Assembly: GCF_003003095.1 (NCBI RefSeq)
Contig: NZ_PVTT01000002.1
Location: 868,001-932,000, forward strand
DNA: 64,000 nucleotides
Direction of reading: 5' to 3'
Source of the DNA: Hasllibacter halocynthiae
Lineage (GTDB): Bacteria > Pseudomonadota > Alphaproteobacteria > Rhodobacterales > Rhodobacteraceae
In this document: positions 865 through 40,123 of the stretch, piece after piece
Numbering within the stretch: position 1 is the first letter of the stretch
How the letters are laid out: each line of letters opens with the position of its first letter
Position numbers and translations under genes: made by a program
The notes under the pieces: generated by a model
Database searches by the model: none
The model's input: only the letters and a program-made list of their open reading frames with translations
Told to the model about the DNA's origin: nothing

Positions 865-914
865 GTAACCTGCGGATTGCATGTTCCCAGCCTGGAGGGT
901 AACGTCAAGGTTAC
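865..914. promoter_or_regulatory. candidate operator: inverted repeat GTAAC-N6-GTTAC
   Basis: In the 114-base divergent region between the membrane protein and def, bases 899-914 form a perfect inverted repeat with GTAAC and GTTAC arms around a six-base spacer. A further GTAACC half-site lies at 865-870. The repeat would fit a dimeric regulator (MerR- or TetR-like sites have this form), possibly the adjacent XRE protein. This is inference from symmetry only. Confidence 0.35.
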
Positions 915-963
915 ACGCCGCGCCCCGATTGCGCCTTGGCGCCTCGCCGCCTATCTCCCCTTC

Positions 964-1491
964 ATGGCGATCCGACCGATCCTCCTGCACCCGGATTCCC
1001 GGCTCAAGAAGCGCGCCGCCCCGATCGGCGTGCCCACGAACGCGCACCGCGCCTTGGCCGAGGACATGCTGGCCACCATGTACGACGCGCCGGGCATCGG
1101 CCTTGCCGCGCCGCAGGTCGGCGTGCTCGAGCGGATGATCGTCATGGACTGCGAGAAGGAGGAGGGCGCGACGCCCCGCCCCCTCGTCTTGATCGACCCG
1201 GAGATCGCCTGGTCCTCCGAGGAGCGGAACGTCTACGAGGAAGGGTGCCTCTCCATACCCGAGCAGTTCGCCGACGTGGAGCGGCCCTCGGCCGTGACCG
1301 TCCGATGGACCGATCCCGGCGGCGAACGGCGGGAGGAGACTTTCGACGGTCTGTGGGCGACCTGCGTGCAGCACGAGATCGACCATCTCGACGGGGTGCT
1401 CTTCATCGACCACGTGGGCCCGATGAAGCGCCAGCTCATCACGCGCAAGGCGCTGAAGATGAAGAAGGAACGCGCGAGGGAGGCGTCCTGA
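964..1491 (+). CDS. def: peptide deformylase
   Basis: Removes the formyl group from the N-terminal methionine of nascent proteins in the cytosol. The 175-residue protein has all three active-site motifs: GIGLAAPQ (44-51), EGCLS (about 93-97, with the metal-ligand Cys) and QHEIDHLDG (136-144, with two His ligands and the catalytic Glu). Length is normal for a type I deformylase. The start MAIRPILLHPD matches the family; an upstream in-frame ATG near 877 would add a non-conserved extension. It is first of three tandem deformylase paralogues followed by fmt, an operon handling both ends of the formylation cycle, and is likely the main active copy. Confidence 0.95.
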   Translation: MAIRPILLHPDSRLKKRAAPIGVPTNAHRALAEDMLATMYDAPGIGLAAPQVGVLERMIVMDCEKEEGATPRPLVLIDPEIAWSSEERNVYEEGCLSIPEQFADVERPSAVTVRWTDPGGERREETFDGLWATCVQHEIDHLDGVLFIDHVGPMKRQLITRKALKMKKERAREAS

Positions 1492-1495
1492 GCCC

Positions 1496-1945
1496 TTGCC
1501 CGTCCGCCCGATCGTCCTTCATCCCGACGAACGCCTCCGTGCGGTCTGCGCGCCCGTGGGCGCGGTGACGGGGCAGGTGCGGGCGCTAGCCGACGACCTT
1601 CTGGAGACGATGTACGACGCGGGTGGAAGGGGTCTCGCGGCGCCGCAGGTCGGGGTGCTGCGCCGACTGTTCGTGATGGACGTCGGCTGGAAGGACGGCG
1701 AGGCCGCGCCCGTCGTGATGGTCGACCCGGAGGTGCTGGACCTCTCCGAGGCGCGAGGCGGGACCGAGGAGGCGTGCCTCTCGATCCCCGGCGAGCCGCG
1801 CCGGGTGATGCGTCCTTCGGAGGTGACGATGGCCTGGACCGCCTTTGGGGGCGAGCGGGTCCACCGCCGCCTGCGGGGCATGGAAGCGCGCTGCGCCCAG
1901 CACGAGCTGGACCATCTGGACGGCGTGCTGATCCTCGACCGATGA
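1496..1945 (+). CDS. peptide deformylase paralogue 2
   Basis: A 149-residue deformylase-family protein, shorter at the C terminus than the first copy. Motif 1 is GRGLAAPQ, motif 2 is EACLS (Ala replaces the usual Gly but the Cys ligand is kept) and motif 3 is QHELDHLDG, so metal ligands and the catalytic Glu are intact and activity is plausible. It probably starts with TTG four bases after the first def stop; this is the only start giving the conserved [11 protein letters not shown] opening. Its stop overlaps the ATG of the third copy as ATGA. Substrate preference relative to copy 1 is unknown. Confidence 0.85.
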
Positions 1946-3730: not shown

Positions 3731-5107
3731 CTAGGCGGGGCCGGACAGGGGAAGGTCGTACAAGGTCGTGCCCTCGACGCCGACGACGCTGCGCAGCCGG
3801 TCCTCGGAGGCCGCGCAGCCGAGAAGGTCCGCGGCCAGTTCGGAGCGCAGCTCGACCAGCTGGGCCTGCCGGTCGTAGAACGCCTCCTCGTTGTCGAGAA
3901 GCTCGGCGATGCGCCGGGTCCCCAACTCGAGGTATTGGTCGCGGTAGATCCCGCGGGCCTCGCCCAGAAGGTCGATTTGGCTCTGAAGAAGGGCGATCCG
4001 CTGCTCGGCGGCGGCGATGTCGCGCAGCCGGCCGCGGGTTCGCAGCACCGTTTCGCGCCGCGCCGCGGCGACCGCGGCTTCGGCGGCCTCGCGCTCGGCC
4101 AGGGCGGCATCGGCGGCGGCGGAGAGCGCTCCGCCCCTCAGCAGGTCGGAATCCACCGAGACGTCGAGGCCCATCCGCATGCGGCCATCGCCCTCGGTCC
4201 GCCGTGCGACGGGTTCGACCGACAGGCTGGGCAGACGCGCGGCCTCGGCATCGGCCAGCGCCAGATCGGCCTTGGCGAGACGCAGCCGCGCGACGAGGAC
4301 ATCGCCGGCGTCGTCGGGTGCGGCGCAGCTCTCAGGCCGGATGGCGGGCACCGTGCCGCCGCGCGACTGGCCGGTCAGCACCGCGAGGCGGTCGCGCGCC
4401 TCGGCGAGCGCGAGCTCGGCGTCCCGGGCCTCGAACCGGGCGGCGCGAACGCGGATGCGGGTCTCCAAAAGGTCCGAGCGCGGCGCGGCGCCGATCGCGG
4501 TGCGCTCCGCGATGCGGTCCTGAAGGGTCTCCATGGCAGCGACTTGGTCCTCTCGCACCTCCAGCAGGCGGACGTTGGCGCGCACCGCGTCATAGGCGAC
4601 CAGGATCTCGACGATGGCCTCGTCCACCGCTTCCTGGAACGTGACGTAGCCGATCCGCATGTCCATGTCGGAGGCGGTGACGGCCCGCCCGGTCCGGCCG
4701 AAATCGACGAGAAGCTGGCGCCCGCGCAGCTCGGCGCCCGCCGCGCGGCTGGCCGCGTCGCCGACACCCCCGCCGATCGACAGCCCGAGGGCCGGGAAGC
4801 GGGCGGCACGCTGGATGCGGATCGCGTCGGCGGCGGCTGCGACCTCGCCAGCGGCGGTCCTGACCTCCGGGCTGAGGGACAGACCGGTCCGGACCACGGC
4901 GCGGGCGTCGTCCCCTTCCGCCGCGACGAGCGGCGTGAGGCCCTCCGTCCGCGCGATGAGCCTCGCCTCCAGACCGTCTGGCGCCGGAAGGGAGCACGCC
5001 CCCAGGATCACCGCCGCGGCGGCGGGCGCGAGGGTACGGCCCCGGCGTGCGGCCCGGGCGCCGGTCACGGTGCCCGGCGCCTGCCGCCGCGGACCACCGC
5101 TGCGCAT
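3731..5107 (-). CDS. TolC-like outer-membrane factor of the type I secretion system
   Basis: A 458-residue protein forming the last gene of the adhesin secretion operon. It starts MRSGGPRRQAPGTVTG and has a lipobox-like LGACSLPAP, suggesting an outer-membrane lipoprotein. The body is long amphipathic, Ala/Glu/Arg-rich helices arranged as two pseudo-repeats, typical of the TolC/CusC efflux-protein fold, with recurring LL-x-AR and LAxAEARDRLAVLTGQ-type segments. It would form the outer-membrane channel docking with the HlyD-type adaptor. Its start overlaps the end of the BamE-like gene by 43 bases. Starts further upstream in the frame lack conserved character. Confidence 0.85.
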   Translation of the reverse strand: MRSGGPRRQAPGTVTGARAARRGRTLAPAAAAVILGACSLPAPDGLEARLIARTEGLTPLVAAEGDDARAVVRTGLSLSPEVRTAAGEVAAAADAIRIQRAARFPALGLSIGGGVGDAASRAAGAELRGRQLLVDFGRTGRAVTASDMDMRIGYVTFQEAVDEAIVEILVAYDAVRANVRLLEVREDQVAAMETLQDRIAERTAIGAAPRSDLLETRIRVRAARFEARDAELALAEARDRLAVLTGQSRGGTVPAIRPESCAAPDDAGDVLVARLRLAKADLALADAEAARLPSLSVEPVARRTEGDGRMRMGLDVSVDSDLLRGGALSAAADAALAEREAAEAAVAAARRETVLRTRGRLRDIAAAEQRIALLQSQIDLLGEARGIYRDQYLELGTRRIAELLDNEEAFYDRQAQLVELRSELAADLLGCAASEDRLRSVVGVEGTTLYDLPLSGPA

Positions 5108-5499
5108 TGCGGACGCCTCCAGACCGTCTCCTCCACCCGGCCGGCCGCGTCGAAGTAGACCCGGTACTGACATACGAGGCGGTTCGCCTGGGGGTAGTCG
5201 AGTGAGAGGTCGTAGTTCCACGACCCGTCCGCATAGGCTGAGACGGGGCGGCCCAGCGCACGGACCAGATCGGCCTTCGTGCCGCCGACGCGGACCTGCC
5301 GGATCTGCGCGACGCTTCGCGGGATCCCCACGCGGGAGAAGGCGGCGTCCATGCTCTCGTAGGGGCGGGAGACACGGGGAAAGCCGCGATCGGGATCGAC
5401 AACGTCGAGCTCCGCGGCGGCGGGACCGGGAAGCGACGCGCCCCCGAACGCAATGGCGAGGCTGAGGGCGAGAGCGGCGGGAAGGCGGGTGGCGTTCAT
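5065..5499 (-). CDS. SmpA/OmlA (BamE)-like periplasmic protein in the secretion operon
   Basis: A 144-residue exported protein. The first ~29 residues are a signal peptide (MNATRLPAALALSLAIAFGG, ending near AAA). There is no Cys at the processing site, so it is likely soluble rather than a lipoprotein. The mature part contains GTKADLVRALGRPVSAY followed by WNYDLSL and YRVYFDAAGRVEETVWRRPQC, the pattern of SmpA/OmlA domains, whose best-known member BamE is part of the beta-barrel assembly machine. It sits between the HlyD adaptor gene and the TolC-like gene (overlapping the latter), so it probably helps fold or dock the outer-membrane channel or the adhesin. The family call is moderately sure; the role is inference. 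Confidence 0.65.
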   Translation of the reverse strand: MNATRLPAALALSLAIAFGGASLPGPAAAELDVVDPDRGFPRVSRPYESMDAAFSRVGIPRSVAQIRQVRVGGTKADLVRALGRPVSAYADGSWNYDLSLDYPQANRLVCQYRVYFDAAGRVEETVWRRPQCAAVVRGGRRRAP

Positions 5500-5549: not shown

Positions 5550-6722
5550 TCACCGTTCGCGAAGCGCCTCCTGCGCCCTGTTGAACGGCTTCACGAGGTA
5601 CTGCCACACGGTCTTCTCGCCCGTGCGGATGTCGACGGTGGCAATCATGCCCGGGGCGATGGGGAACTCGCGCCCGTCGGCGTTCACGAGGTGGTCCGCG
5701 GCGGTGCGGATGAACACCCGGTAGTAGACCTGCTCGGGCCGGACCTCGTCGCGGATCGTGTTGGGCGAGATCGTATCGACCACCCCCGCCAGCCCGCCGA
5801 AGATCGCGTAATCATAGGCGGATATCTTCACCGTCGCAGCTTGGCCGGGATGGATGAAGGCGATGTCGCGCGGCGAGATCCGCGCTTCGACCAGAAGCTC
5901 GTCCCCAGCGGGCACGATGGTCATGAGGCGACCGCCCGGGGGAACGACGCCGCCGATGGTGGTGACGGCGACGTCCTGCACCACGCCGCGCATCGGCGCG
6001 CGGAAGGTGAGGCGATCGACGGCGTCGCTGCGCCCCCGCATGACCGAGGACTGGACCTGCGCCTCCGCATTCACGCGCTGAAGCTCCTCGCCGGCCTGGA
6101 CCTGGCGGTCGGCGCGCAGACGGGCGATCTCGAGGCGAAGCTCGGAGGCCTCGCGCCGCAGGCGGATCAACTCGACGCGGCTCGAGGCGCCGGAGGCCTG
6201 CAGCCGCTCGGCGATCGAGACCTCCTCCTCGAGCAGGCCGAGCCCTTCGGTCAGGCCCGCGAGCCTGTCGGCAAGGCTCGTCCGGCGGGAGCGGAACAGC
6301 GCCCGCTCGTTGGCTCGCAGCTCGGCGAAGCGCGATCCGTCCAGCGCCGGCGGGAAGGTGACGACGTCGCGGTCGTCGATCTCGGCGCGCAGGCGGGCGG
6401 CGGCGGCGATCGCGGCATGGTAGCGCGCGGCCGCCTCCTCGACGTCCGACTCCGAACGGGTCGGATCGAGTTGCGCCACCACCTCGCCCGCCTCGACCAC
6501 ATCGCCCTCGGCGACGGCGAGCGAGGCGAGGATGCCCCCCTCGAGCGACTGGACGACCTGCTCGCGCGAGCTGGGAACCACTGTCCCCTGGCCGCTGGAA
6601 ACCTCGGCGAGGGGGAACCACCAAGCCCAGGCGAGGAACAGGACCAGCATCGCCGCGACGAGGTGGACGAGGCGACGTTCGCCGCGCCGGTCCTGCGGGC
6701 CGAAGTCGAGCGCGAGCGTCAT
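5550..6722 (-). CDS. HlyD-family periplasmic adaptor of type I secretion
   Basis: A 390-residue membrane-fusion protein. One N-terminal transmembrane helix (about 19-41) is followed by the barrel/lipoyl half-motif QGTVVPSSREQVVQSLEGG, a long coiled-coil hairpin (about 85-230, very rich in Ala, Arg, Glu and Leu), the second lipoyl half FRAPMRGVVQDVAV and a C-terminal beta domain ending TGEKTVWQYLVKPF, a characteristic ending of this family. It bridges the inner-membrane ABC transporter and the TolC-like channel. The ATG overlaps the ABC transporter stop as ATGA, indicating translational coupling. Confidence 0.93.
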   Translation of the reverse strand: MTLALDFGPQDRRGERRLVHLVAAMLVLFLAWAWWFPLAEVSSGQGTVVPSSREQVVQSLEGGILASLAVAEGDVVEAGEVVAQLDPTRSESDVEEAAARYHAAIAAAARLRAEIDDRDVVTFPPALDGSRFAELRANERALFRSRRTSLADRLAGLTEGLGLLEEEVSIAERLQASGASSRVELIRLRREASELRLEIARLRADRQVQAGEELQRVNAEAQVQSSVMRGRSDAVDRLTFRAPMRGVVQDVAVTTIGGVVPPGGRLMTIVPAGDELLVEARISPRDIAFIHPGQAATVKISAYDYAIFGGLAGVVDTISPNTIRDEVRPEQVYYRVFIRTAADHLVNADGREFPIAPGMIATVDIRTGEKTVWQYLVKPFNRAQEALRER

Positions 6723-8911
6723 GCCGCGACCCTTCCCCGGCGCAGCCGGTCCAGCACCTCGTCCTTCGGTCCGTCCAGGGCCACGCCGCCGGCGTTCAGC
6801 ACGACGAGGCGGTCGACGATCCGCAGCACGGCGGGTCTGTGGGTGGCGATGACGAGCGTGGCATCCGGCGTGTCGCGCAGGGCGTCGATGACGGCGTTCT
6901 CGGCGACCTCGTCCAGCGCGGCGGTCGGCTCGTCCAGCAGGAGGACGCGCGGGTCGCGCAGCAGCATCCGCGCCAGCAGGAGGCCTTGCCTCTGCCCTCC
7001 CGACAGCCCCAGGCCGCCTTCCTGGATCGGGTGGTCCAGCCCATCGGGCAGGTTCCGGACGAACGCGGCGAGCGACAGATCCTCGAGCTTGGCCATGATC
7101 GCCGCGTCGTCGGCGAGCGGGGCGCCGAGCACGAGGTTCTCGCGCAGCGTTCCATGGAACAGCCGCGCGTCCTGCCTCACGAGGCCGACGTCGCGCCGGA
7201 CGTCGGCGGGATCCAGAAGGCCCATGGAGACGTCGTCGAGCCGCAGCTCGCCGGAAAGCGGCTCGAGAAGGCCGCCCAGGCCCGCGAGGAGCGTCGACTT
7301 GCCGGACCCGTTGCGCCCCAGGAGCGCGATCCGCTCGCCCGGCTCGATCCGCAGGTCCGGCACGGCGAGGACCGGGGCCTCGGGGGCATGGCCGAAGGTC
7401 GCGGCTTTGAGGGCGAAGCGCCCTTCGATGACCGGCCTGTGGATGCGCTGCGTCCCTGCCGGCAGGTCGACCGGCAGGGCGAGGATGCGATCCAGCGCCT
7501 CGCGCGCGACGCGCGCCTGCTGCCAGCGGTTCACGATCTGCGTCACCGAGGTCAGTGGCGCGAGCATCCGCGAGGACAGCATGGAGGCGGCGACGAGGAC
7601 GCCGGTGCTCATCTCGCCAACCATGACGAGGGGCGCCCCGAAATAGACCACGAGGACGAAGACGCCCCCCTGGACCGTCTGCGCCCAGCTCGAGAGGCGG
7701 GAGACGAGGTCGCGCAGGCGGATCGACGCGCCGGAGGTGACCTCGGTGTAGTGGTTCCACTGATCCTGGAAGCGCGCCTCGGCCTGGAGCGACTTGATGT
7801 CGTCGAGCCCCTGGATCGCCTCGACCAGCATCGCGCCGCGCAGCGCGCCCTCCCGTGCGCTCGCCTCGGCGAGGCGCCGCAGCTTGTTCTGCGCGAGAAG
7901 GCCGGGCCCGATCAGCAGCGCCATCGCGGCGATGGGGATCCAGACCAGGCCGCCCGCGATATGGTAGAAGAGCGCGCAGAACAGGAAGAAGAACGGCAGG
8001 TCCGCCATCGCGGTCACGGTGGTCGAGGCCATCATCTCGCGCACGTGCTCGAGCTCGCGGATCTGGGCGATGAACGTTCCGGTCGCGCGCGGGCGGGCGG
8101 TGTTGCGGACGCGCAACGCGTGGCCGAACACCCGGTCCGAGATGCGCAGGTCGGCCGCGCGCCCGGCCGCGTCGGTGATGCGGCTGCGCGCGACCTTCAT
8201 GGAGAAGCCGAGCAGCACGGCGATGGCCACGCCCCCGAAGAGGACGTGAAGGGTCGGCATCGACTGACTGGGCACGACCCGGTCGTAGACCTGCATGGAG
8301 AAGAGGATGCCCGCCATGGCCAGCAGGTTGGTCACCAGCGAGGCGGCCATCACCGCCCGATAGGGCGCGAGGTCGGCCAGCACGATCTCGCGCAGCCAGT
8401 CGGGCCGCCAGGGCCGGGCGTAGTCCTCGACGCGGCTGTCGCGGGCGGCCGCGGCCGGGCGAAGCACGTAAGCTTCGCGGATGGTCCGCGCGAGCGTGGG
8501 CGCGTCGACGGGGGTCGCGAGGCCTCCGTCGCCGCCGAAGGCGACCGTGAAGCCGTCCGGCGTCCGGGCCTCGATCACGCCGACCGCCCTGCCCTCGAAC
8601 GTCGCGAGGACCGGCAGGCGCACCCCGGCGAACGCGGCGGCGGAGCCGGGCAGGCGCTCGACTAGAAGGCCGGCGGATCGGGCGAGGCGTCGGATCTGGT
8701 CCGCCTCGCCAGCCCAGGCGAGGTCCAGGCGCATACGTTCGGGCGAGACGCCGATGCGGTAGTGGCGCGCGATCCGCAGGACCGAGGCCAGCCAATCGGC
8801 GCCGGGTGGGCGCGGCGGCGCTTCCGCGGCGGCAGGGCCCTCCCCGGCCCCGACCTCTCCCGGAGGGGCCGGATCCGTCGCCGCGGCCGGCTTGGCGTGC
8901 CCCGCGTTCAC
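6719..8911 (-). CDS. type I secretion ABC transporter (LapB-like) with C39-like domain
   Basis: A 730-residue transporter that energises export of the adjacent giant adhesin. The N-terminal region (about 40-160) looks like a peptidase C39-like domain but contains no Cys, so it should be a non-proteolytic substrate-docking domain, as in RTX/adhesin exporters. A transmembrane domain follows (about 165-450). The ATPase domain has Walker A GRNGSGKST (about 530-540), signature LSGGQRQG (about 635) and Walker B VLLLDEPTAALDE (about 655). The GTG start overlaps the adhesin stop as GTGA. An upstream extension to 9022 would lie inside the adhesin gene and is not conserved in character. Confidence 0.93.
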   Translation of the reverse strand: MNAGHAKPAAATDPAPPGEVGAGEGPAAAEAPPRPPGADWLASVLRIARHYRIGVSPERMRLDLAWAGEADQIRRLARSAGLLVERLPGSAAAFAGVRLPVLATFEGRAVGVIEARTPDGFTVAFGGDGGLATPVDAPTLARTIREAYVLRPAAAARDSRVEDYARPWRPDWLREIVLADLAPYRAVMAASLVTNLLAMAGILFSMQVYDRVVPSQSMPTLHVLFGGVAIAVLLGFSMKVARSRITDAAGRAADLRISDRVFGHALRVRNTARPRATGTFIAQIRELEHVREMMASTTVTAMADLPFFFLFCALFYHIAGGLVWIPIAAMALLIGPGLLAQNKLRRLAEASAREGALRGAMLVEAIQGLDDIKSLQAEARFQDQWNHYTEVTSGASIRLRDLVSRLSSWAQTVQGGVFVLVVYFGAPLVMVGEMSTGVLVAASMLSSRMLAPLTSVTQIVNRWQQARVAREALDRILALPVDLPAGTQRIHRPVIEGRFALKAATFGHAPEAPVLAVPDLRIEPGERIALLGRNGSGKSTLLAGLGGLLEPLSGELRLDDVSMGLLDPADVRRDVGLVRQDARLFHGTLRENLVLGAPLADDAAIMAKLEDLSLAAFVRNLPDGLDHPIQEGGLGLSGGQRQGLLLARMLLRDPRVLLLDEPTAALDEVAENAVIDALRDTPDATLVIATHRPAVLRIVDRLVVLNAGGVALDGPKDEVLDRLRRGRVAA

Positions 8912-11900
8912 GCGACGAACTCGACTTCGTCCTGCAGGTCGCCCAGCACGGTGAGCGTCACGGTCTGCCCGCCCGCGCCGCCTATCGTTCCGGTGTAGAC
9001 CCCTCCGCCGCCGCCGGACCAAGCCCCGCTTAGCGTCAGCCGGTCCTCGCCGTTGCCGGTCACGGTCAGCGCGTCGTCGCCATCCGTGATCGCGGCGAGA
9101 TGCTCGGGGGTCAGGCCGTCGATCCGGTTCGCGCCCTTCGCATCGAGGTCGAGGGTCTCGACGTTCTCGAGCACGTCCGAAAGCTGGAGACCTGAGACGT
9201 CCTCGCCCGTTCGGAGGGCGACGGCGTCCTCGCCGTCGAGCGCGTCGAGACCGAAGCCAGTGAACAACAGCGCGTCGTCGCCGGTCGTCCTGGTCTGCTC
9301 GAAGAAGACCGTGGTCACCGTCGCGGACGCCACGTCCGAGACGTCCGCGCCGTCGGTCGTCGTCGCCGAGACCCCGATCTGCAGACCGGCCGTTCCGGGA
9401 TCCTGATCGTTTAGGGCGGACGCCGCCTGCCGGACGCTGAGCGTGTCGATGTCCCGCTGCGTCAGCCCGGTGATCGTGTAGGCGTCCGCCGCGGCATCGT
9501 AGCGCACCGTGTCCGCGAGGTGCCGGGCCTCGTCACCGGCGTGGAAGGAGGCGAACCTGCCCAGTCCGGTGAGGACGACCGTCGCCGTCTCGAGGTTCTC
9601 GTCGGGGGCGGCGCTGCTCGTCGTGGCGTCCTCTGCGTCCACGATCGACAGGTTGAGGTTGAGGCCGACGATCTCGCCCTCGGTGCCGAAGGTGCTGCTG
9701 GACGTCGCCTCGGCGCCGTCCGCGACCGGGCTCACGGTGACGTCGCCGACCGGGATCGTGTCGGAACGCTTGTCGCCCAGCCCCGTCTCGCCCGAGGTGG
9801 CCACGAGGTTGATGCCCGTGACCGTGCCGCTGAAGTGCTGCGGCGGCAGGATCGCCACGAAGGGGGGCAGGCTTTCCCCCTGGCCTGCGACGATCCAGGT
9901 GTTGACCGTCCCGTCGCCGCCAGCGTTGCTGGCTGGGGCTGCGCTGTCGCGGTCCGCGCCGACATGGATCACGAAGCCCTCGGGCACGTCCGTGAGCAGG
10001 ATCGACACGAACGCCTCCGATCCATCGTCGTCCGAGAGCGCCGCCGAGAGGTCCGCCAACTCGATCAGCGATGCGACCGAGCCGTCCGGCGCCTCGTCGC
10101 CCGCGGACGGATCGCTCGCGAGGGTGGCGCCGTCATTCCCGATCCCGACCGTCAGCACCTCCGTCCCGGAGGAGGTGATCGGCGCGGCGCCGGCCTCCTC
10201 GTTCGCGACGGTCGCGGTGACGGCGACGTCGCCGGCCACCATCCGGGGGGGCGTGTAGACGACGCCGACCGTTTCCCCGAACTTGGCGGCGGGGATGACG
10301 TGGTAGTCCCCGTCCGGGATGTTCGGGATGCCCGATACGCCCTCGAGTGGGTAGGTTTCCGTGCCGTCCGCGCTGGTCAGCGTTCCGCCTCGCAGGCCGA
10401 GCTCGCTTCCCGTCACCTGAAGGTAGAGGTCGCCGCCGACGATGCGGCCGGCCGCACCGTCCGCTTCGTTCGAAAGCGTGATCTCGATCGGAACGGACGC
10501 GTCGGACTCGTCGAGCGCCCCGTCATCGTCGGCCTTCCCGAGCACGATCGAGATCGCGGCCTCGTCCGCCACCGGCTCCACCGGAGCCGCGACCGCGGCC
10601 TCAGCCTCGCGCGAGGTCGCGCCGCCCTGCACGCTGGTGTTCAGCGTCGCGGTGAAGCCGAGCGCGCCAGGGGCGTTGTTCTCGTTCGAGTTGGCGGGCG
10701 CCGTGATCACGATGCTGTCCAGCAGCGCGTCGAGTGCGGCCTGCACACCTGCCGGTCCCTCGCCGGCCGGGGAAGTCACGGATTCGGTGAAGGTCTCGAC
10801 TCCGCCGATCACCGTGCGGGTCATCCCCTCGATCACCGTGCCCGAGGGAACGCCCGTGATCTCGACGGTCAGCGTGTTCGGCTCGGTGCTGGCGGTGGTG
10901 ACGCGTCCCTCGATGAGCGTGGACAGCCGCGTCGGCGCGTCCTCCGTCGCGCCGTTGCCGGTATGGGACCACTCCTCGATCTCCGCCAGCGCCGGCGCGC
11001 CCTCGCCGGACGAGCCGTAGGTCGCCTCGAGCGTGAAGCTGACCGTGTCCTCGCCGGTCGCGGTCCCAGCGTCGGCCCTGTCGCCGCGGTCGCGGACCTG
11101 AACGGTCATGTCGATGCGGACGGGATCGGTGGTCGCCACCTCCTCGCCGACGACGAACTCGACCGGGATCGAGGCGCCGTCCGCGTCGATCCGCACCGCG
11201 TCCGTGCCCACGTACTTCAGGAGCCATGTGTTGGGACCGATCAGCTCCGCGCCCGTCACCGTCACCCCCTGCGGGACGTTGTCGACGATGATGCGGGTGA
11301 CGCGTTCGCTGCCGTCCTCGTCCGGCGAGGCGACGTTCACGCCGACCGTGATCGTGTCCGGCGCGCCGAGCACGATCGTATCGGGCGAGGCGTCGTCGCC
11401 GGGGGTGCCGTCGCTGATCACGGTGTCCGCGCCCGTCGCAGTGATGGCGTCGATGACGGCGTCGGGCGCGTCCGTCGCTGCCGTCGCCGTCAGGGTGAAG
11501 GTCGTGGCCCGGTAGCCGCTGGTCGTCGGACCGGTTCCGGTCGTGGTGCCGAAGGCGTCGTCCGTAATGCGGTACTGCACCTCGAACGTCCCGATCGCGC
11601 CGTCGGCGTGGGGGTCGGCGAGGGCAGAGAGATCGCCTGCCTGGGCGGGGGCCAGGACGAAGTAGTCGACACTGCCTTCCGTCTCGATCGGAAGTCCCGC
11701 GTCCGCGAGAGGCGTCGCCCCTGCACCGACGCCCAAGTACAGGACGTATTGCTCGCCCTCGGCCTCGTCCACGCGGATGCGGACGCGTTCGATCGTCTCG
11801 TCCGCGTCGCCGCCGCGATGATCGATCCGGAAGCCGAGGGTCGTGATCTCGTCCTCGGCGATGACCGCGCCGTCGCTCACCTGCGCCTCCGGGGCCGGCG

Positions 11901-14900
11901 TGACGGAGAAGGACAGGTCGATCCGTTCGCCCGTGAGCGAATTGCCGTCGTCCTCCGTCGTGACCGCCTGAGCGTGGAAGGTGACGTCGCCGCTGAAGTT
12001 GGGCGGCACCTCGACCTCGGCTGCCGCGAAATCGGCGGGCGATAGCGCCCAGACCCGGTCCGCACCCGCCGCCGACGGCGCCGAGACGAGCGCCCCCTCC
12101 GAGAGCGAGAAGCCGCCCTGCAGCCCAGTCACCCGAACCGTCAGAGCCTCGGAACCGTCGGCGTCGCGCGCCGTGAACGTGACCAGCTCGTCCAGGGCGA
12201 CCACGTCGGCGCCGCCGTCGAGCGCCGCCTCGTCGTAGGTTCGCGGCGTGACCGCGGCGTCCGCCCCGTCGGCGACCCCGGAGACCACGACCGTGATCGG
12301 CAGCGTCTGGGGCGGGTCGAAGGTGCGCACGACCGCGTCGCCGCCGATGGTGGCCGCATCGACCGACACAGCGTCGACCAAGAGGACGAAATCCTCGTTG
12401 CTGTCCCGAGGCGGCACGATCGAGAGCGGCGCGGCGGGGTCGAAGCCCGTGATCGACGCGGTGCCGTCCGTGACGGTCAGCGCGGCGCCGTCGTAGAGAA
12501 GCCGGGCGCCGGCGGGGATGTCGCGGATGTCGACGTCGAACGTCTCGCCCGGGTCCGAGCTGCTCGGCCGGATGCCGAGCGGGATCCCGGTATCCTCTTG
12601 CCCGGTCGCGCGCGCGTTCAGCGTCAGCGCGACCTCGTCCGCGACGGGAAGGATGTCGAGATTGGTCAGGAACGCTTGCCCGCTGACGGCCTCGTCCGGC
12701 TCGCCCGCGCCTTCGGCGTCGTCATCGAAGTCCTGCGCGAGGGCGTTCACCTCGATGGTGAAGCGGCCCGACGCCTCCGGCGGGGGAAGGAATTCGGCGG
12801 TGCCGAGGGCGGCGGCCGGGATGCGCACGGGCGCGCCGCTGAACGTCGCCGTGACGGTCGCGTCGTCCTCCATCCAGCGGAACCGGGCGCCGATGGCGCT
12901 TTCCCCGCCGCCGGCCGTCGGCGTCAGAAGGGCGAACACCACCTCGTCGGCATCCTCGTCGGACCAGCCGGCCGACAGGTCGAACGGGCCGGACGCGCCG
13001 TCGCTGTTGAGGTCGAACCACTCGTCCTCCGCGCCCTGCATGGCGTATTCGACACCGGCGGTGAGGCCGAGGTCGTCGGTGTCCGCGTCGTCGCTCGCGC
13101 CGTTCTCGACCTCCGCCACGGGGGTGACGGTGACCTTCACCTCGCGGGTGACGGTCGCCGTGTCGGCGCCGTCGCGCGTCGTGACGTCTATCGAGACGGT
13201 GACGTCGCGGCTGCTGTGCGCGGGTGGGGTGATGGTGAAGCCGTCCAGCACCGCCTCCCGCTCAGCCTGCGTGCCGCCGGTGAAGGCGATCGTGGTCACG
13301 CCGTCCGCATTCGAGGTCGTGAAGCCGGCCCCGTCGCCGGTGGCGGGGGTTCCGAAGGTCCAGCCGGCCGGCACCTCGAACGAGACGCTATCGATCACCT
13401 CCTCGCCCGCGCCGTTGGCATCGCTCGCGCGGATATTCTCGAGGAAGGTCGCGGGCCGATCCTCCGCGGTCTCGACGCCGAGATCGCCCTCCGCAACGTC
13501 GCCGGCGGCCGGGGTCACGTCGAGGTTCAGCGTCACCGTGTTGTTCGAGCGGTCGACCTCGACCACGCCGTCCGCGCCGGGTTCCGCGCCGCGGAAGCCG
13601 TCCGCGTCGACGTCCTGCGCGACCAGCGTGACCCGGATGCCTTCCAGCGCGCCGCTTACGTCGCGGCCGGCCCCGACGAGGATCCGGGGGAAGCTGTCGA
13701 TCCCTCCGGTCTGCTCGCCTGCCGGGATCGTGGCCGAGCCCCCGGGCGCCACGGTCTCGGACCCGACGCGGATCGGCCCGTCGTTCGAGTTCTCGATAAC
13801 GATCGCGCGGACCTCGCTGCCGTCGAGGTCGGCGAAGCCGGATTCGAGGATGGCGCGAAGGTCGAAACGCGCATCCTCCCGGATGGTGACGTCGGCCACG
13901 GTGTCGCCGCCGTCGCCCGAGTAGGCGATCTCGTCGACGCCATCCACAGCGGCGGCCGACGCGGTGTCGTCGAAGCGCAGCTCGGCATCGTCGGTCACGG
14001 CGCGCACGGACACGTCGACCACCTCGGGCACGGCGAGCGCGCCCGCCACGCCCGGGCGCGGCGCGCCGTCCGCGTCGACCTCGAACGAGGTGACATCGGC
14101 CTGCACCGCGAAATCCCCCGAGGCGTTCCGGGGCGGCAGGACCTGCAGCGCCTCGTAGGCCGCCGAGGTCAGCGCCAGGTCGCCGGTCGCCCCGGCGACC
14201 GAGGCGACGTCCGTGATCAGGATCGCCACCGGGTCCGCGCCCACCGTCAGCAGCGCGTCCCCCGCCCCGTCCAGCAGCTTCGCGCCGGCAGGCAGCCCCG
14301 AGAGGGTGATCGGCCCGATCCGCTCGGAGGTGGGATCGTTCCCCGCGCCCGTGCCGTCGTCGGCGATGCTCGGCGCGGTCAGGCCCAGCGCCACGGCCGT
14401 GTCCTCGTCGGTGGCGACGTCGCCGCCCGCACCCAAGGCGGGGGCGTCGCTGACCGGCGCGACGGTCGCCGTCACGACCGTGTCCGACAGCGTGCCGTCA
14501 TCCGATCGCACGACGAAGCTCTCGTCGCCGGCGAAGTCCGGCGCGGGCGCATAGGTCATCGCGCCGTCCGGGGCCATCGTGACCGTCCCGTTGGCGAGCG
14601 CGTAGACCACGTTCCCGTTCGCGCCGGACGTGCCGGCCACCTCCGCGTCGTCCTGGCGGATCACGGTGTTCAACTGGTCCGCGTCCGCGGACGTGTTGAA
14701 GGTGAACGACCCGTCCTCGGGGATCGTCCGGTCGATCGTCGCGGGCGCGACGTCGTCCGCCACCGTTACGGTGAAAGGCGCTGCGGCCGTGTCGCCGTCG
14801 CCGTCGGTCACGAGCGCCGCGAACTCGAGGTCGAGCGCCTCCGCCGTCCCGTGGTCGAGCGGACCCTCAAGGGTGAACGCGTAGCCGGCGGAGGCGTCCG

Positions 14901-17900
14901 CCGGGTCGGTCAGCACGAGGGTGAACACCCGGTCCGCCGCGCCGGGGTCGCCGGCGAAGGCCTCGACGCTGCGCCCGTCCGTGGAGGTGACGTATTGCAG
15001 CGCCTCGCCACGCGAGGTGATGCCCGAGGGCAGTTCCGTCAGCGTCGCCTCGAACGCGTCCGCGCCGGGCGTCACGTCGAGCGTGCCCGTGACCGTCAGC
15101 GCGGACGCGTCGGGATCGCTCGCGCCCGGCAGGTCGGCCTCGTCCACGGCCGCGTCCGTCGGCGTGCCCGCCTCGGGCGCCGTGTCGGTGACCGTGATCT
15201 TCTGGGTCGCGGTGCCCAGGGCGGCGTCGCCGTCTCCGTCCACGACCCGGTATCCGAAGTCGTCGCGCAGCGCCGTGTCGCTGCCGGGCCGCGCGTGCCC
15301 GGCCGAGGCGAGGGGCGTGTAGCTCCACGCCCCGCCGGACGCGACGGTGAGCGTTCCGTGCTGCGTGTCCACCGTCAGCGACCCGCCTTCGGAGATCGTG
15401 GCGGTGCGCCCGGTGCCCGAACGGTCTGCATAGTCTATGCCGGAGACCCTTCCGCCGTCGGCGCCCAGCACCGCGTCCGCCAGGAGGTCGCCGCCCACGG
15501 CGCCGTCCCCTTCCTGCACCGTCGCCGGGGCGCCGTCCCTCGGCGCCTCGGCCGCGTCATCGGCGATCGTCAGGGTCACGGCGCCAGACACCGCGGAGTC
15601 CGCGTCGCGCACCTCGTAGCGAGCCGAGAGAACCGTCTCCCCGTCCGCTTGGTCGAGCGGTGCCGACAGCGTCGCCGTCACCGCCTGCGAAGCCCCGCTC
15701 GCGTCGTTCGGAGCGTCGATGACGAGCGTGAACACCGTGGCGCCGTCCGCCGAGGCGGTCAGCCGGTGACCATCCGCGGAGAGCGCGTAGCCCACCGGCG
15801 TGCCGCCGGAGCTGAGCGCCGGCAGCGCGTCGATCGTCGCCTGCGTGAACACGACGTCGACGATGCCGTCCTCGCCGGCGGTCAGCCCCAAGGGCTGCCT
15901 CGTGCTGGGGTCGTCCCCCGCCGCGCCGGCCGAGCCGGCATCCGGCAGGTCGGCCTCGTCCAGCGAGAGCGTCGCGCCGCCGGCCCCGGGGCCGGTGTCC
16001 GTCACCGTCAGGGTCTGGCGGGCCGGGGCTGACGCGGTGCCGTCCGCATCCACCAGCACGTAGGAGAACGAGCCCGCGTCGGCGCCCGGGCCCGCGGCGT
16101 CGTGGTCGAAGGCGGGGACGGGCGTGAAGCTCCACGCGCCGTCCACGCCAACCGTCAGCGTGCCGGTCGGCGTGTCCACGGTAGCCGAAGCGACCCCGCC
16201 GTCGAACTCAACCGTCTGCGCGGCACCGCCGGCGTCGGTGTAGGTGAAGGAGCCGAGATTCGCCGGACCGTCGGCGGAGGCGGTGTCGTTGTCCGTCACG
16301 TTCCCGGTCAACGTCCCGCCGCCTTCGGGAACGGTGCGCTCCACGTCGTCCGCCGCGACCGGTCCGGTGTCCGTGATCGCGATCGGCTGGGCGACGAAGG
16401 ACGTCGCGTCGCCGTCGCCGTCGAGCAGTGCATAGGCGAAGCCACCGTCGGCGTCCGCGCCGCCCGAATGCGGCACCGAGGGGGCGGGCGCGAAGCTCCA
16501 GGTGCCGTCGGCGTTCACCTCCAACGTGCCGAACCGTGCGTCGAGCGGACCCGTCCCGGCCGCGCCGTGCGCGATCTCGACCGTCCGCTCGACGCCGCTG
16601 CGGTCGACGTAGCGCACCAGGCCGACGCGCGCGCCGTCCGCGCCCGCATCGTCGTTGTCGAGCAGTCCGGGATCGCCGGCTGCCGTGCCGAGCGTGCGGC
16701 CGCCCTCCTGCACACTCAGCGGCGCCTCCTCCCGCGCCACGGGTGCGTCGTCCGTCACCGCGACCGTCAGCGAGGTCTCGCGGACGTCGCCGTCCTCGTC
16801 GACGACCCGGACCGGGATCACCTCCCGGACGGTGTCGGCCCCGGCGGCGTCGTGGTCCGACGTCGCCCCGTCCAGCGCGTACTGGAACGTCAGCCGTCCG
16901 GTGCCCGGATCGAACCCCGTGACGGAGAGGGTGCCGTAGGCCGTGCCGACCGGGGCGGCCGGAGCCCCTTCGCTGGCCGCGAGCAACTCGGCGCGCGTGA
17001 AGGTCACGTCCCCGAGAAGCAACTCCGAGACGGCCGCGTCGCCCGGGCCGAAGGCGATGGTCGAAGCCGTCGCCCGTTCGGCCGGGGAAGGCGTCGTTCC
17101 GCCGGCAAGGCCCGCTTCGTTCAGGACGATGTGCTCCGGAGCGTCGGGGACCCGATCCTCGACGATGGCGGGGATGACCTCGCGCGTGGCGCTGGCGCCG
17201 TTCCCGGCCGCGTCCCGGGCGGTCGCGGTGATCGTCACCTCCGCATCGGGAAGGGCGGCGGCGGGTGTATGGCTCCAGGTTCCGTCCGGCCCGACCTGCA
17301 GAACCACGGGGTCCTCGTCGCCGATGCTCAGCAATACGGTGTCGCTGGCTTCGCCGGTTCCGGTCAGTGTCGGGGGCTCGCCGTCGCGCACGATCACCGG
17401 GTCCATGGTGACGGCGATCGTGGTGTCCTTGACGATCTCACCGGTTGCCGTCTCCGGCGCGCCGCTGCGGTCCTGCACGTTAAGGCGGGCTGCGAGGGGG
17501 CCGTCTGCCATGTCGGAGAGATCGGCGAGGGTGGTGAACGCGCCGCCTTCGTCGATCGCGACGTCCTCTACCGGGATGGTGAGGGTCCGCGTGCCGTCCG
17601 TGATCGTCAGGGACACGAGCGTGCCGCCAGTCGGGACCTGGCCCTCGACTCGAACGGCGGAGAGATCGTCCAGCGTCGAGAGGACGCCATCGCCGGCCTG
17701 GGCGTCCTCGGGCCCCGCGTCGTCGAGGATCTCGACGGAGGGTCGCGCGTCGACGGTGACCGTCCAGGTCGCCCCGTCCGAGGAGTTCGCGGCGCCGCTG
17801 CCGTCGTCGACGGTGTAGGGAACGCGCGCGACCCCCACGAAGCCGGGTTCCGGGGTGAAGGTCAGGACGCCTTGCTCGTCGATGGATACGGCGCCGCCTG

Positions 17901-19173
17901 CCACGGCAACGGGTGATCCGGGCGCGACCGGCCTGCCGTCGATCGTGCGCACGGCGAGGGCCGAGGCCTCGCCGGCGTCGACGTCGGCGTCGTTCCCGCG
18001 AACGTCGAGGACGGCATCCTCGTCCGCCCGCACGAAGGAGGCGTCGTCCGCAGCCCTCGGGGCGTCGTTGGCGCCGTCGATCGTCACGGTCACGCGCCGG
18101 GTGTCCACCGCGCCCTCGCGGTCCGTCACCTGCACCAGAACCGTGTCGGCGAGGGCGTCGCCCGCGCCCAGGGCCTGAACCTCGGGCCGCTCGTCGTCCA
18201 GCACGTAGGACCACCGCCCGGACCCATCGACCGTGAAGGTTCCGTAGCGCCCCGCCTCGCCCGGCGCCAGCGACCAGGAATGGGCCTCGCCCGCGTCCGG
18301 ATCGTCGACCTCGAGTTGCCCGCTCCGCGCCCGGGGGCCGTCCTCGGACACGTTGCCCGCATCCTCGCCCGCGAGGACGGGCGCGTCGTTCGTCCCGATC
18401 ACGCTCAGCACGAGGTCGGCGGTCGACGTCTCGCCCGACCGGTTCGCGATCGTGTAGGTGAAGGTCTCGGTCACGACCTCGCCCTGGGCGAGCGCCTGCG
18501 TAGCCGGCCGCGCGTCGTCGAGCACGTATTCGTAGTCGCCGTCCGCACCCACCTTCAGCACGCCGTAGCGGGTCTCGACCGGTTCGCCGACGGGGGCCTC
18601 GGCGTCCTCGACGAGAAGCTCGACCACGCGGAAGGCCCGCGGATCGCTCGAGCCGTCGTTGACCAGCAGGCGGCCCGCCGCGCGCGCCGCGCCCGGCGCG
18701 TCGCCGCCAGCCTCGGTCACGTCCGCGGCATCGTCCGTCGCCCGCGGGACCGGATCGGGGTCGGAGCCGCCGCCGGCCACCGCGGCCCCCGCGGCGAGAA
18801 GGGCGCCGAGCGCGCCCATGGCGCCCGGGCCGCCTCCGGGGATCGCCGCGAGCGTCGCGCCCTCGCGCTCGATCTCGGCGATCTCGAAGCACGTCCAAGG
18901 CTCGTCGTACTGGGCCCACCAGGCGACCTCGGCGTCGTCCACGAACACGAGGTCGCTGCGGGCGCCGTCATGGGTCTGGAAGAATCCCTCGATCACGATC
19001 CGCGAGCCGTCCCGGAGGGTCAGAACGAGGTCGAGCCCCACCTTCGCGAAGTCCGTGACCTCCTCGGGGCCGAACGGCATCTCGACGACGCTCGCGCCCC
19101 GAAGGACGACGGGGCCAGCGGACGTCCATTCCGCGGCGCCGCCGCCGGCCTTGCTCGTGATAGAAACCGTCAT
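8908..19173 (-). CDS. giant VCBS/cadherin-like surface adhesin exported by type I secretion
   Basis: A 3421-residue, highly acidic protein and the first gene of the operon. Residues ~1-110 resemble the prefix module of BapA/LapF-type adhesins (DLVLTLRDGSRIVIEGFF), followed by a Gly/Ala linker (LLAAGAAVAGGG, about 125-137). Residues ~140-1350 hold VCBS-type units with recurring GTLxVxxDGxWSF/YxP and GTNDAPV motifs. Residues ~1350-3180 hold further Asp/Glu-rich cadherin-like units. The end (about 3185-3421) has the module NVETLDLDAKGANRIDGL...LTVTGNGEDRLTLSGAW seen at the C terminus of type I-secreted adhesins. No GGxGxDxU nonapeptide array is obvious. Expected roles are Ca-stabilised surface adhesion and biofilm formation. 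No Shine-Dalgarno is strong, but MTVSI is the only sensible start. Confidence 0.9.
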   Translation of the reverse strand: MTVSITSKAGGGAAEWTSAGPVVLRGASVVEMPFGPEEVTDFAKVGLDLVLTLRDGSRIVIEGFFQTHDGARSDLVFVDDAEVAWWAQYDEPWTCFEIAEIEREGATLAAIPGGGPGAMGALGALLAAGAAVAGGGSDPDPVPRATDDAADVTEAGGDAPGAARAAGRLLVNDGSSDPRAFRVVELLVEDAEAPVGEPVETRYGVLKVGADGDYEYVLDDARPATQALAQGEVVTETFTYTIANRSGETSTADLVLSVIGTNDAPVLAGEDAGNVSEDGPRARSGQLEVDDPDAGEAHSWSLAPGEAGRYGTFTVDGSGRWSYVLDDERPEVQALGAGDALADTVLVQVTDREGAVDTRRVTVTIDGANDAPRAADDASFVRADEDAVLDVRGNDADVDAGEASALAVRTIDGRPVAPGSPVAVAGGAVSIDEQGVLTFTPEPGFVGVARVPYTVDDGSGAANSSDGATWTVTVDARPSVEILDDAGPEDAQAGDGVLSTLDDLSAVRVEGQVPTGGTLVSLTITDGTRTLTIPVEDVAIDEGGAFTTLADLSDMADGPLAARLNVQDRSGAPETATGEIVKDTTIAVTMDPVIVRDGEPPTLTGTGEASDTVLLSIGDEDPVVLQVGPDGTWSHTPAAALPDAEVTITATARDAAGNGASATREVIPAIVEDRVPDAPEHIVLNEAGLAGGTTPSPAERATASTIAFGPGDAAVSELLLGDVTFTRAELLAASEGAPAAPVGTAYGTLSVTGFDPGTGRLTFQYALDGATSDHDAAGADTVREVIPVRVVDEDGDVRETSLTVAVTDDAPVAREEAPLSVQEGGRTLGTAAGDPGLLDNDDAGADGARVGLVRYVDRSGVERTVEIAHGAAGTGPLDARFGTLEVNADGTWSFAPAPSVPHSGGADADGGFAYALLDGDGDATSFVAQPIAITDTGPVAADDVERTVPEGGGTLTGNVTDNDTASADGPANLGSFTYTDAGGAAQTVEFDGGVASATVDTPTGTLTVGVDGAWSFTPVPAFDHDAAGPGADAGSFSYVLVDADGTASAPARQTLTVTDTGPGAGGATLSLDEADLPDAGSAGAAGDDPSTRQPLGLTAGEDGIVDVVFTQATIDALPALSSGGTPVGYALSADGHRLTASADGATVFTLVIDAPNDASGASQAVTATLSAPLDQADGETVLSARYEVRDADSAVSGAVTLTIADDAAEAPRDGAPATVQEGDGAVGGDLLADAVLGADGGRVSGIDYADRSGTGRTATISEGGSLTVDTQHGTLTVASGGAWSYTPLASAGHARPGSDTALRDDFGYRVVDGDGDAALGTATQKITVTDTAPEAGTPTDAAVDEADLPGASDPDASALTVTGTLDVTPGADAFEATLTELPSGITSRGEALQYVTSTDGRSVEAFAGDPGAADRVFTLVLTDPADASAGYAFTLEGPLDHGTAEALDLEFAALVTDGDGDTAAAPFTVTVADDVAPATIDRTIPEDGSFTFNTSADADQLNTVIRQDDAEVAGTSGANGNVVYALANGTVTMAPDGAMTYAPAPDFAGDESFVVRSDDGTLSDTVVTATVAPVSDAPALGAGGDVATDEDTAVALGLTAPSIADDGTGAGNDPTSERIGPITLSGLPAGAKLLDGAGDALLTVGADPVAILITDVASVAGATGDLALTSAAYEALQVLPPRNASGDFAVQADVTSFEVDADGAPRPGVAGALAVPEVVDVSVRAVTDDAELRFDDTASAAAVDGVDEIAYSGDGGDTVADVTIREDARFDLRAILESGFADLDGSEVRAIVIENSNDGPIRVGSETVAPGGSATIPAGEQTGGIDSFPRILVGAGRDVSGALEGIRVTLVAQDVDADGFRGAEPGADGVVEVDRSNNTVTLNLDVTPAAGDVAEGDLGVETAEDRPATFLENIRASDANGAGEEVIDSVSFEVPAGWTFGTPATGDGAGFTTSNADGVTTIAFTGGTQAEREAVLDGFTITPPAHSSRDVTVSIDVTTRDGADTATVTREVKVTVTPVAEVENGASDDADTDDLGLTAGVEYAMQGAEDEWFDLNSDGASGPFDLSAGWSDEDADEVVFALLTPTAGGGESAIGARFRWMEDDATVTATFSGAPVRIPAAALGTAEFLPPPEASGRFTIEVNALAQDFDDDAEGAGEPDEAVSGQAFLTNLDILPVADEVALTLNARATGQEDTGIPLGIRPSSSDPGETFDVDIRDIPAGARLLYDGAALTVTDGTASITGFDPAAPLSIVPPRDSNEDFVLLVDAVSVDAATIGGDAVVRTFDPPQTLPITVVVSGVADGADAAVTPRTYDEAALDGGADVVALDELVTFTARDADGSEALTVRVTGLQGGFSLSEGALVSAPSAAGADRVWALSPADFAAAEVEVPPNFSGDVTFHAQAVTTEDDGNSLTGERIDLSFSVTPAPEAQVSDGAVIAEDEITTLGFRIDHRGGDADETIERVRIRVDEAEGEQYVLYLGVGAGATPLADAGLPIETEGSVDYFVLAPAQAGDLSALADPHADGAIGTFEVQYRITDDAFGTTTGTGPTTSGYRATTFTLTATAATDAPDAVIDAITATGADTVISDGTPGDDASPDTIVLGAPDTITVGVNVASPDEDGSERVTRIIVDNVPQGVTVTGAELIGPNTWLLKYVGTDAVRIDADGASIPVEFVVGEEVATTDPVRIDMTVQVRDRGDRADAGTATGEDTVSFTLEATYGSSGEGAPALAEIEEWSHTGNGATEDAPTRLSTLIEGRVTTASTEPNTLTVEITGVPSGTVIEGMTRTVIGGVETFTESVTSPAGEGPAGVQAALDALLDSIVITAPANSNENNAPGALGFTATLNTSVQGGATSREAEAAVAAPVEPVADEAAISIVLGKADDDGALDESDASVPIEITLSNEADGAAGRIVGGDLYLQVTGSELGLRGGTLTSADGTETYPLEGVSGIPNIPDGDYHVIPAAKFGETVGVVYTPPRMVAGDVAVTATVANEEAGAAPITSSGTEVLTVGIGNDGATLASDPSAGDEAPDGSVASLIELADLSAALSDDDGSEAFVSILLTDVPEGFVIHVGADRDSAAPASNAGGDGTVNTWIVAGQGESLPPFVAILPPQHFSGTVTGINLVATSGETGLGDKRSDTIPVGDVTVSPVADGAEATSSSTFGTEGEIVGLNLNLSIVDAEDATTSSAAPDENLETATVVLTGLGRFASFHAGDEARHLADTVRYDAAADAYTITGLTQRDIDTLSVRQAASALNDQDPGTAGLQIGVSATTTDGADVSDVASATVTTVFFEQTRTTGDDALLFTGFGLDALDGEDAVALRTGEDVSGLQLSDVLENVETLDLDAKGANRIDGLTPEHLAAITDGDDALTVTGNGEDRLTLSGAWSGGGGGVYTGTIGGAGGQTVTLTVLGDLQDEVEFVA

Positions 19174-19412
19174 GGTCGAACCCTGTTGCTCGCAGCACTA
19201 AGAACCCCGCCTCGCGGGCCGTCATCGGCTGCCTGTCCCCTTTCCGGCGCCGTCCATCGGTCGAAAGCGTCGGCTCAACCGGCGTTTCGCCACCGTTCTG
19301 GGCGCTCGGAAGGCGTTCCGATGACCGGTTCTGGGGAAAGACTTAACGCTTGGTTAAGACCGGAGGCGCCGGCCCGAAGGCCGCGGACGCGCGGCGCCGA
19401 CGGGCCGAGCTC
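19174..19412 (-). promoter_or_regulatory. upstream region of the adhesin operon with a CtrA-type site
   Basis: This 239-base gap between rnhA and the adhesin gene must carry the operon's control region. Bases 19343-19357 read TTAA-N7-TTAA (TTAACGCTTGGTTAA), an exact full match to the CtrA consensus of alphaproteobacteria, and 19342-19358 form a six-base inverted repeat. The site is about 170 bases upstream of the adhesin start. No convincing sigma-70 -35/-10 pair is visible on the reverse strand, which fits a promoter needing an activator. CtrA binding is inference from the motif. Confidence 0.5.
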
Positions 19413-19868
19413 CTAGCGCTTCTTGAAGGGTGCCATGCCGGCCCGGGCCAGCTCGTCCGCGCGTTCGTTCTCCGGGTGGCCGGCATGGCCCTTCACCCAT
19501 TCCCAGCGCACGTCGTGGGGCGCGCGGGCGGCGTCGAGGCGGCGCCAGAGATCCTCGTTCTTCACGGGCCTCTTCGTGGCCGTCCGCCAACCCCGGCGCT
19601 TCCAGCCGTCGATCCAGTCGGTGATGCCGCCCTTCACGTAGGCGCTGTCGGTGACGACCGTGATCCGCGAGGGCCGGGCGAGCGATTCGAGCGCGGAGAT
19701 CGCGGCGAGCAGCTCCATCCGGTTGTTGGTGGTCTGCGGCTCGCCGCCTTTCAGGGCACGCTCCTTCACGACGGCGCCGCCCTCCTTCGCGAGCAGGAGC
19801 ACGCCCCAGCCGCCGGGGCCGGGATTCCGCGAGCAGGCGCCGTCGGTATAGGCGAAGAGGTCAGGCAA
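19413..19868 (-). CDS. rnhA: ribonuclease HI
   Basis: Cleaves the RNA strand of RNA-DNA hybrids during replication and repair. The 151-residue protein shows the RNase H fold in normal order: [17 protein letters not shown] (first catalytic Asp at residue 9), [15 protein letters not shown] (catalytic Glu), [14 protein letters not shown] (catalytic Asp) and [17 protein letters not shown] (fourth acidic residue). Translation appears to start at TTG, overlapping the end of the methyltransferase gene by eight bases, so the two are likely one transcript. Confidence 0.96.
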
Positions 19869-39421: not shown

Positions 39422-40123
39422 ATGTCGCGCATCGCGCTCGTCGACGACGACAGGAACATCCTGACGTCCGTTTCCATGACCCTCGAGGCCGAGGGGTTCG
39501 AGGTCGACACATACAACGACGGCCAGGCGGCCCTCGAGGCGTTCAACCGCAGGCTGCCCGACATGGCGGTCTTCGACATCAAGATGCCCCGCATGGACGG
39601 CATGGACCTGCTGCAGCGGGTTCGCCAGAAGACCACGATGCCCGTGATCTTCCTGACCTCGAAGGACGACGAGATCGACGAGGTGCTCGGGCTGCGGATG
39701 GGGGCCGACGACTATGTCCGCAAGCCCTTCTCCCAGCGCCTCCTGATCGAGCGCATCCGCGCCATCCTCCGCCGCCAGGAGGTGGTCGCCGGGGAGACCC
39801 CCTCCGCCGAGGAGGTCGCGCAGGTCATGACCCGCGGCGAGCTGACGATGGATCCGATGCGCCACGCGGTGTCTTGGAAGGACATGGACGTCACCCTCAC
39901 CGTGACCGAGTTCCTCCTCATCCAGGCGCTGGCCCAGCGCCCGGGCTTCGTGAAGTCGCGCGACCAGCTGATGGACGTCGCCTACGACGACCAGGTCTAC
40001 GTCGACGACCGCACCATCGACAGCCATATCAAGCGGTTGCGCAAGAAGATGCGCTCGGTCGATCCGGACTTCGCCGCGATCGAGACGCTCTACGGCATCG
40101 GGTACCGCTACAACGAGGACTGA
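39422..40123 (+). CDS. chvI: response regulator ChvI
   Basis: OmpR/PhoB-type transcription factor of the ChvG-ChvI system, which controls envelope, acid and host-associated responses in alphaproteobacteria. The 233-residue protein has an acidic pocket (VDDD, residues 7-10), phospho-acceptor Asp52 in [19 protein letters not shown] and KPFSQRLL, and a winged-helix domain from about 130 ending in [15 protein letters not shown]...IGYRYNE. The start [10 protein letters not shown] is supported by homologues. It is followed by chvG after five bases. Confidence 0.96.

Follow-up and report, generated by a model that had tools for sequence, protein, structure and literature searches.

The CtrA-type site and the rnhA-adhesin gap

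The 64,000-base stretch of Hasllibacter halocynthiae DNA analyzed here (the window) encodes a giant secreted adhesin together with its exporter, and the question raised by this locus is whether the regulator CtrA controls them directly, by way of a single site in the DNA immediately upstream. The adhesin gene and its upstream neighbor rnhA (19413..19868; Pfam RNase_H) are both on the minus strand, and are separated by a 239 bp gap with 69% GC that runs between the rnhA stop at 19413 and the adhesin ATG at 19173. On the basis of these ORF ends we take the gap (19173..19413 including the boundary bases) as the operon control region. Bases 19343-19357 within it read TTAACGCTTGGTTAA on the forward strand, corresponding to TTAACCAAGCGTTAA on the operon (minus) strand, and are an exact match to the pattern TTAA-N7-TTAA.

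A preliminary description of this DNA had reported a full CtrA consensus at this position, had called the 15-mer rare, and had placed it in the single gap upstream of the operon with no strong sigma-70 promoter nearby, and on each of these points we agree. The site is the sole TTAA-N7-TTAA in the 64,000-base window and the pattern is absent from 100 shuffles of it, it lies inside the sole upstream gap of the adhesin-T1SS operon, and a consensus sigma-70 search of 19100-19500 found no promoter. An Rfam search of the 64-kb window identified only a tRNA, and no RNA element in the rnhA-adhesin gap.

The adhesin-T1SS operon

The genes to the left of the gap, all on the minus strand, constitute a BapA-type T1SS operon, in which an adhesin with a BapA prefix and adhesin repeats is linked to ABC, HlyD and TolC genes. 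The 3,421-residue BapA-type adhesin (8908..19173) contains BapA_N, cadherin-like, Big and VCBS domains as well as T1SS-143 repeats. It scores above the cut-offs of PF22783 (68.4 bits, cut-off 27), NF033677 (48.4 bits, cut-off 35) and TIGR03660 (147.4 bits, cut-off 66.05), and below that of the whole-family model NF045619 (45.8 bits, cut-off 180). Its last 364 residues, checked for an RTX or secretion-signal region, match no Pfam family at E <= 0.01.

Downstream are genes coding for an LssB-type T1SS ABC exporter (6719..9022; TIGR03375, 710.8 bits, cut-off 693.1), an HlyD-type T1SS adaptor (5550..6722; TIGR01843, 315.7 bits, cut-off 208.65) and a TolC-like outer membrane channel (3731..5221; Pfam OEP, 95.7 bits, cut-off 22), the last of which falls below the cut-off of the subfamily model TIGR01844 (108.6 bits, cut-off 225). 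Read from its first start codon, the ABC exporter ORF and the adhesin gene overlap; the real start of the exporter probably lies further inside its ORF.

Genome-wide spacing of the motif

The preliminary description had proposed, as a check, a count of TTAA-N7-TTAA in the intergenic DNA of the full genome. Over the whole genome (2.78 Mb) there are eight occurrences, and none of the reversed-pattern control AATT-N7-AATT. Spacing provides a better control. Pairs of TTAA with a gap of 0 to 30 bases number 18 genome-wide, eight of them at N7 and ten distributed across the other 30 spacings, such that ~0.33 N7 sites are expected by chance (Poisson P(>=8 given 10/30) = 2.8e-9). Because the AATT control gives 15 pairs, a total for the whole 0-30 range rather than a breakdown by spacing, the excess is specific to N7 and is not a property of TTAA pairs generally. 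Five of the ten non-N7 pairs fall within 7 kb on contig C1 (385876-392543), which suggests an AT-rich island in this GC-rich genome, and another two are in contact with sites of the N7 type or lie next to them.

The N7 excess indicates that most of the eight sites are likely to be real, the adhesin site included. The spacing control thus makes it unlikely that the site in the adhesin gap is a chance or decayed match without effect on the adhesin, with about a third of a site expected genome-wide against the eight observed. Counts of this kind do not transfer readily to other genomes, and among 61 family genomes counted by hand TTAA-N7-TTAA exceeds its reversed control in 19, is tied with it in three, and is less frequent in 39; in relatives, the raw number of motifs therefore tells little.

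Comparison with dprA and chpT loci of relatives

The dprA gene is present in 60 of the 61 family genomes, and 30 of these 60 loci, including that of the window genome itself, were searched for TTAA-N7-TTAA with at most one mismatch, from 350 bases upstream of the start to 30 bases inside the gene. A site is present at 28 of the 30 loci, and in 25 of those 28 it is positioned 54-67 bases upstream of the start. The runner-up among the spacings is N6, at 10/30. One of the loci lacking a site (L139) provides no real test because the contig ends there, leaving almost no upstream DNA. Upstream of chpT the site is present in 17 of 30 loci at scattered positions, with the next best spacing in 8/30.

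A matrix was constructed from the dprA sites of 25 of the 29 relatives, excluding the window's own genome; the four left out beforehand were L130 and L139, which have no site, and L135 and L141, in which it is off position. When both strands of the window are scored, the adhesin site is first with 23.0 bits on the operon strand, followed at 11.5 bits by the second-ranked locus, and twelve other sites of the same genome score 15.2-23.5 bits on their better strand. A perfect 15-mer that tops the window by matrix and is situated in an upstream gap speaks against a chance match. The dprA sites of the relatives mostly extend to GTTAACC (the first added C in 24 of 25, the second in 20 of 25), and the adhesin site, which reads GTTAAGT, is without this extension.

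CtrA, its relay and its regulon

CtrA is encoded in this genome: the OmpR-type DNA-binding domain has six matches, of which five exceed the cut-off, and one of these proteins passes the Rhodobacteraceae CtrA equivalog NF045991 (422 bits, cut-off 350). The ctrA gene is preceded by GTAACGGTGCGTTAA, one mismatch from the motif, and a second one-mismatch site, TTCACCGGACGTTAA, is located farther upstream and precedes another ORF, which we take to be SciP-like; the stretch of this ORF submitted to Pfam matched no family. The ChpT-type gene was identified by Pfam PF10090, with two NCBIfam ChpT models below their cut-offs, and has a perfect site ~200 bases upstream. A hybrid kinase near recA, in which Pfam finds kinase and receiver domains only, may be CckA.

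The longer pattern TTAACN5GTTAA has 24 genomic sites with no more than one mismatch, compared to zero for the reversed pattern. Five are perfect, and are associated with a GT2 glycosyltransferase, an SNase-type nuclease, chpT, an ORF that belongs to no known family, and the adhesin. Further CtrA-type sites precede dprA, recA, luxI and an ABC transporter gene, another is between fliF and fliL, and another precedes a fliI-type ATPase gene and has a flagellar rod gene on its other flank; a flagellin gene is also present in the genome. With ctrA present, N7 in excess and a recognizable set of targets, the proposal that the motif is in use in this genome holds, and it marks a typical Rhodobacteraceae-style CtrA regulon. 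Among the 24 looser sites, several lack an obvious target and one is inside a predicted reading frame, which counts in favor of a chance match at the adhesin.

The perfect site at C1:58644-58658 is ~39 bases before the start of the GT2 glycosyltransferase ORF, overlapping the carA stop, and this gene is a possible surface-polysaccharide target of CtrA. That at C1:156416-156430 overlaps the predicted start codon of the SNase-type nuclease, and a third TTAA is present 21 bases upstream. The site at C2:402525-402539 is 39 bases before a 217-residue ORF that has no Pfam or NCBIfam match and an N terminus that reads as signal-like.

The regulon resembles those of Dinoroseobacter shibae, Phaeobacter inhibens and Rhodobacter sphaeroides, which have a regulator of the same family (NF045991) and for which flagellar genes, dprA, recA and quorum sensing are common targets in the available portions of the reports (PMC6473078, PMC7232146, PMC12363192). 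The same portions describe CtrA sites or relay effects in D. shibae for flagellar genes, luxI/luxR and recA, and reduced dprA expression when the relay is mutated, in D. shibae as well as in P. inhibens (PMC6473078, PMC7232146, PMC12363192). The regulon differs in that the targets given in these portions include no T1SS adhesin, and the word 'adhesin' occurs zero times in PMC4046655, PMC6473078, PMC7232146 and PMC12363192. Among the matches listed from open-licence literature, the text available describes no T1SS adhesin as being controlled by CtrA, which falls short of proving that no such report exists.

The preliminary description had tied the adhesin to motility or the cell cycle. The motility part is reasonable in light of the fliF/fliL and fliI-type sites, and a tie between adhesin and motility through shared regulation is plausible; the cell-cycle part is not supported. 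Growth and viability are described as unharmed when ctrA is lost in those Rhodobacterales that have been studied, though an influence on replication is reported in some of them (PMC8116508).

Conservation and origin of the operon

Homologues of the BapA prefix are uncommon, and were found in eight of 393 other family genomes searched, with 31-54% identity over the matched part. A genome-contig search gave four matches with 27-37% identity, and these were left out of the conservation test; there is no second genome of the same genus among those searched. The preliminary description had looked to conservation of the motif upstream of orthologous operons, and had named its absence beforehand as refuting. 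Conservation was not borne out: in the 500 bases upstream of the eight homologues, all of which are distant and have starts placed by tblastn, no site within one mismatch is present (0/8). Sites with two mismatches are present upstream of four of the eight (e.g. TTAACGGAACGTCAG in genome G117). The lack of a close site before any of the eight is a point in favor of a chance match, and is set against the genome-wide excess at N7.

The adhesin, ABC and HlyD genes are all absent from the rnhA regions of eight relatives searched by tblastn. In five of the eight, fmt and def are on the same stretch as rnhA, and in one (G035) the alignments of fmt and rnhA end ~160 bases apart. The window differs from this arrangement in having the T1SS segment between fmt/def and rnhA, and the operon therefore seemingly entered this junction in the lineage. 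With neither the adhesin nor its exporter genes near rnhA in the eight relatives, the operon was probably recruited, in this lineage, into a CtrA network that already existed. As judged from these comparisons, the link between CtrA and the adhesin looks lineage-specific, because none of the eight homologues has a site within one mismatch and the operon is absent at the rnhA loci of relatives.

Near the left end of the window (877-1945) there are two adjacent peptide deformylase-like ORFs, both of which are matched by the same def genes of relatives.

Promoter geometry and direction of control

In the accessible text of PMC6180460, five mapped CtrA promoters of R. sphaeroides start at a purine 23 or 24 nt past the site, and have an invariant A at -11 and an invariant G at -4. 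Applying the fla2 promoter distance of 23 nt to the adhesin gap predicts a minus-strand transcription start at ~19319, where there is a G (a purine) as +1, and the A at -11 is present; there is no G at -4 and nothing resembling TATAAT at -10. The predicted leader is ~146 nt, compared to 12-33 nt in R. sphaeroides (PMC6180460, same text). Within this leader there is a weak terminator-like hairpin (19206..19218, minus strand) with a 5-pair stem followed by GTTCTTAGTG, the one such hairpin found between the site and the adhesin start versus 0.3 expected in shuffles. A GC-rich hairpin at the rnhA end (19358..19416, minus strand; fold -36.1 kcal/mol) is a possible terminator without a clear U run, and was not picked up by the terminator-like site search. 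Overall, the geometry of the gap appears weakly consistent with activation by CtrA.

The poor -10 at the activating distance also fits a model in which CtrA binds and represses, or competes with an activator, such that the adhesin is made when CtrA is inactive and cells swim with CtrA and stick without it. CtrA is known as both an activator and a repressor, but according to the text available of PMC6180460, repressing sites in Caulobacter are half sites over the -10 and activating sites are near the -35, whereas the site here is a full one. In addition, no other promoter was found in the rnhA-adhesin gap, and we consider repression to be improbable.

The motif is near-symmetric and scores 22.2 bits on the opposite strand, as would suit a site serving the rnhA end, or a transcript that runs along the plus strand, antisense to rnhA. 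This is very doubtful, as the surrounding plus-strand ORFs overlap rnhA or the adhesin gene, no Rfam family is present at the gap, and the plus-strand direction has no A at -11. A site tied to rnhA is likewise not favored by the rnhA loci of 29 relatives, which have no exact site within 1,500-base flanks (shorter on some contigs).

Activation is the preferred reading, in which the 15-mer is a real CtrA operator that CtrA binds directly, most likely activating the adhesin operon. From sequence evidence we judge this to be fairly probable, and direct control by CtrA, with activation and repression combined, is likely. A CckA-ChpT relay would feed phosphorylated CtrA, which would bind the 15-mer at 19343-19357 and most likely activate rather than repress the adhesin, ABC, HlyD and TolC genes; these four would be co-transcribed from near 19319, and switched together with the flagellar, competence and quorum-sensing genes. 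The observed basis is the motif, the genome-wide spacing signal, ctrA, the sites before expected targets, and the operon anatomy. Counted against activation are the result with the eight homologues, the poor -10, the missing G at -4, the long leader with its hairpin, and the lack of the CC extension. More broadly, we are inclined to think that one phosphorelay jointly sets swimming, DNA uptake, quorum signaling and protein-mediated attachment, with CtrA directly controlling both the adhesin gene and the dedicated exporter; the CtrA network would have captured the operon in a single lineage once it had arrived beside rnhA.

Relationship to other adhesion systems

BapA/LapA-type T1SS operons share with this one the BapA prefix, Ig/cadherin-like and T1SS-143 repeats, an LssB-type ABC exporter, and HlyD and TolC-like components. 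Adhesins of this type are controlled by c-di-GMP with LapD/LapG, or by CsgD, and to our knowledge CtrA operators do not usually feature among their inputs. An RTX protein homologue is reportedly linked to gene transfer agent repression in R. capsulatus.

The Caulobacter holdfast, a polysaccharide adhesin, provides the nearest precedent, in that CtrA likewise acts on a surface-adhesion pathway. In the portion of PMC3900383 available, CtrA of Caulobacter crescentus directly activates hfsJ, upstream of which a site is reported at 66 bp, and occupies the hfiA promoter. These two genes code for a synthesis function (hfsJ) and an inhibitor (hfiA), whereas here the genes behind the site code for a secreted protein adhesin and for the exporter.

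It has been proposed that the swim-and-stick life of Rhodobacterales centers on CtrA, quorum sensing and c-di-GMP (PMC12363192). A direct CtrA operator upstream of a giant T1SS adhesin, if real, would tie that switch to a concrete protein product, and would be a clean example of how an old network takes in an operon that was acquired recently. CtrA is already well known and the adhesin operon would likely be an additional target, extending the target list and leaving the understanding of CtrA itself unchanged.

The window also encodes an OmpR-family response regulator at 39425-40120, which is presumably ChvI-like; its best NCBIfam match is TIGR03787, at a score below the cut-off.
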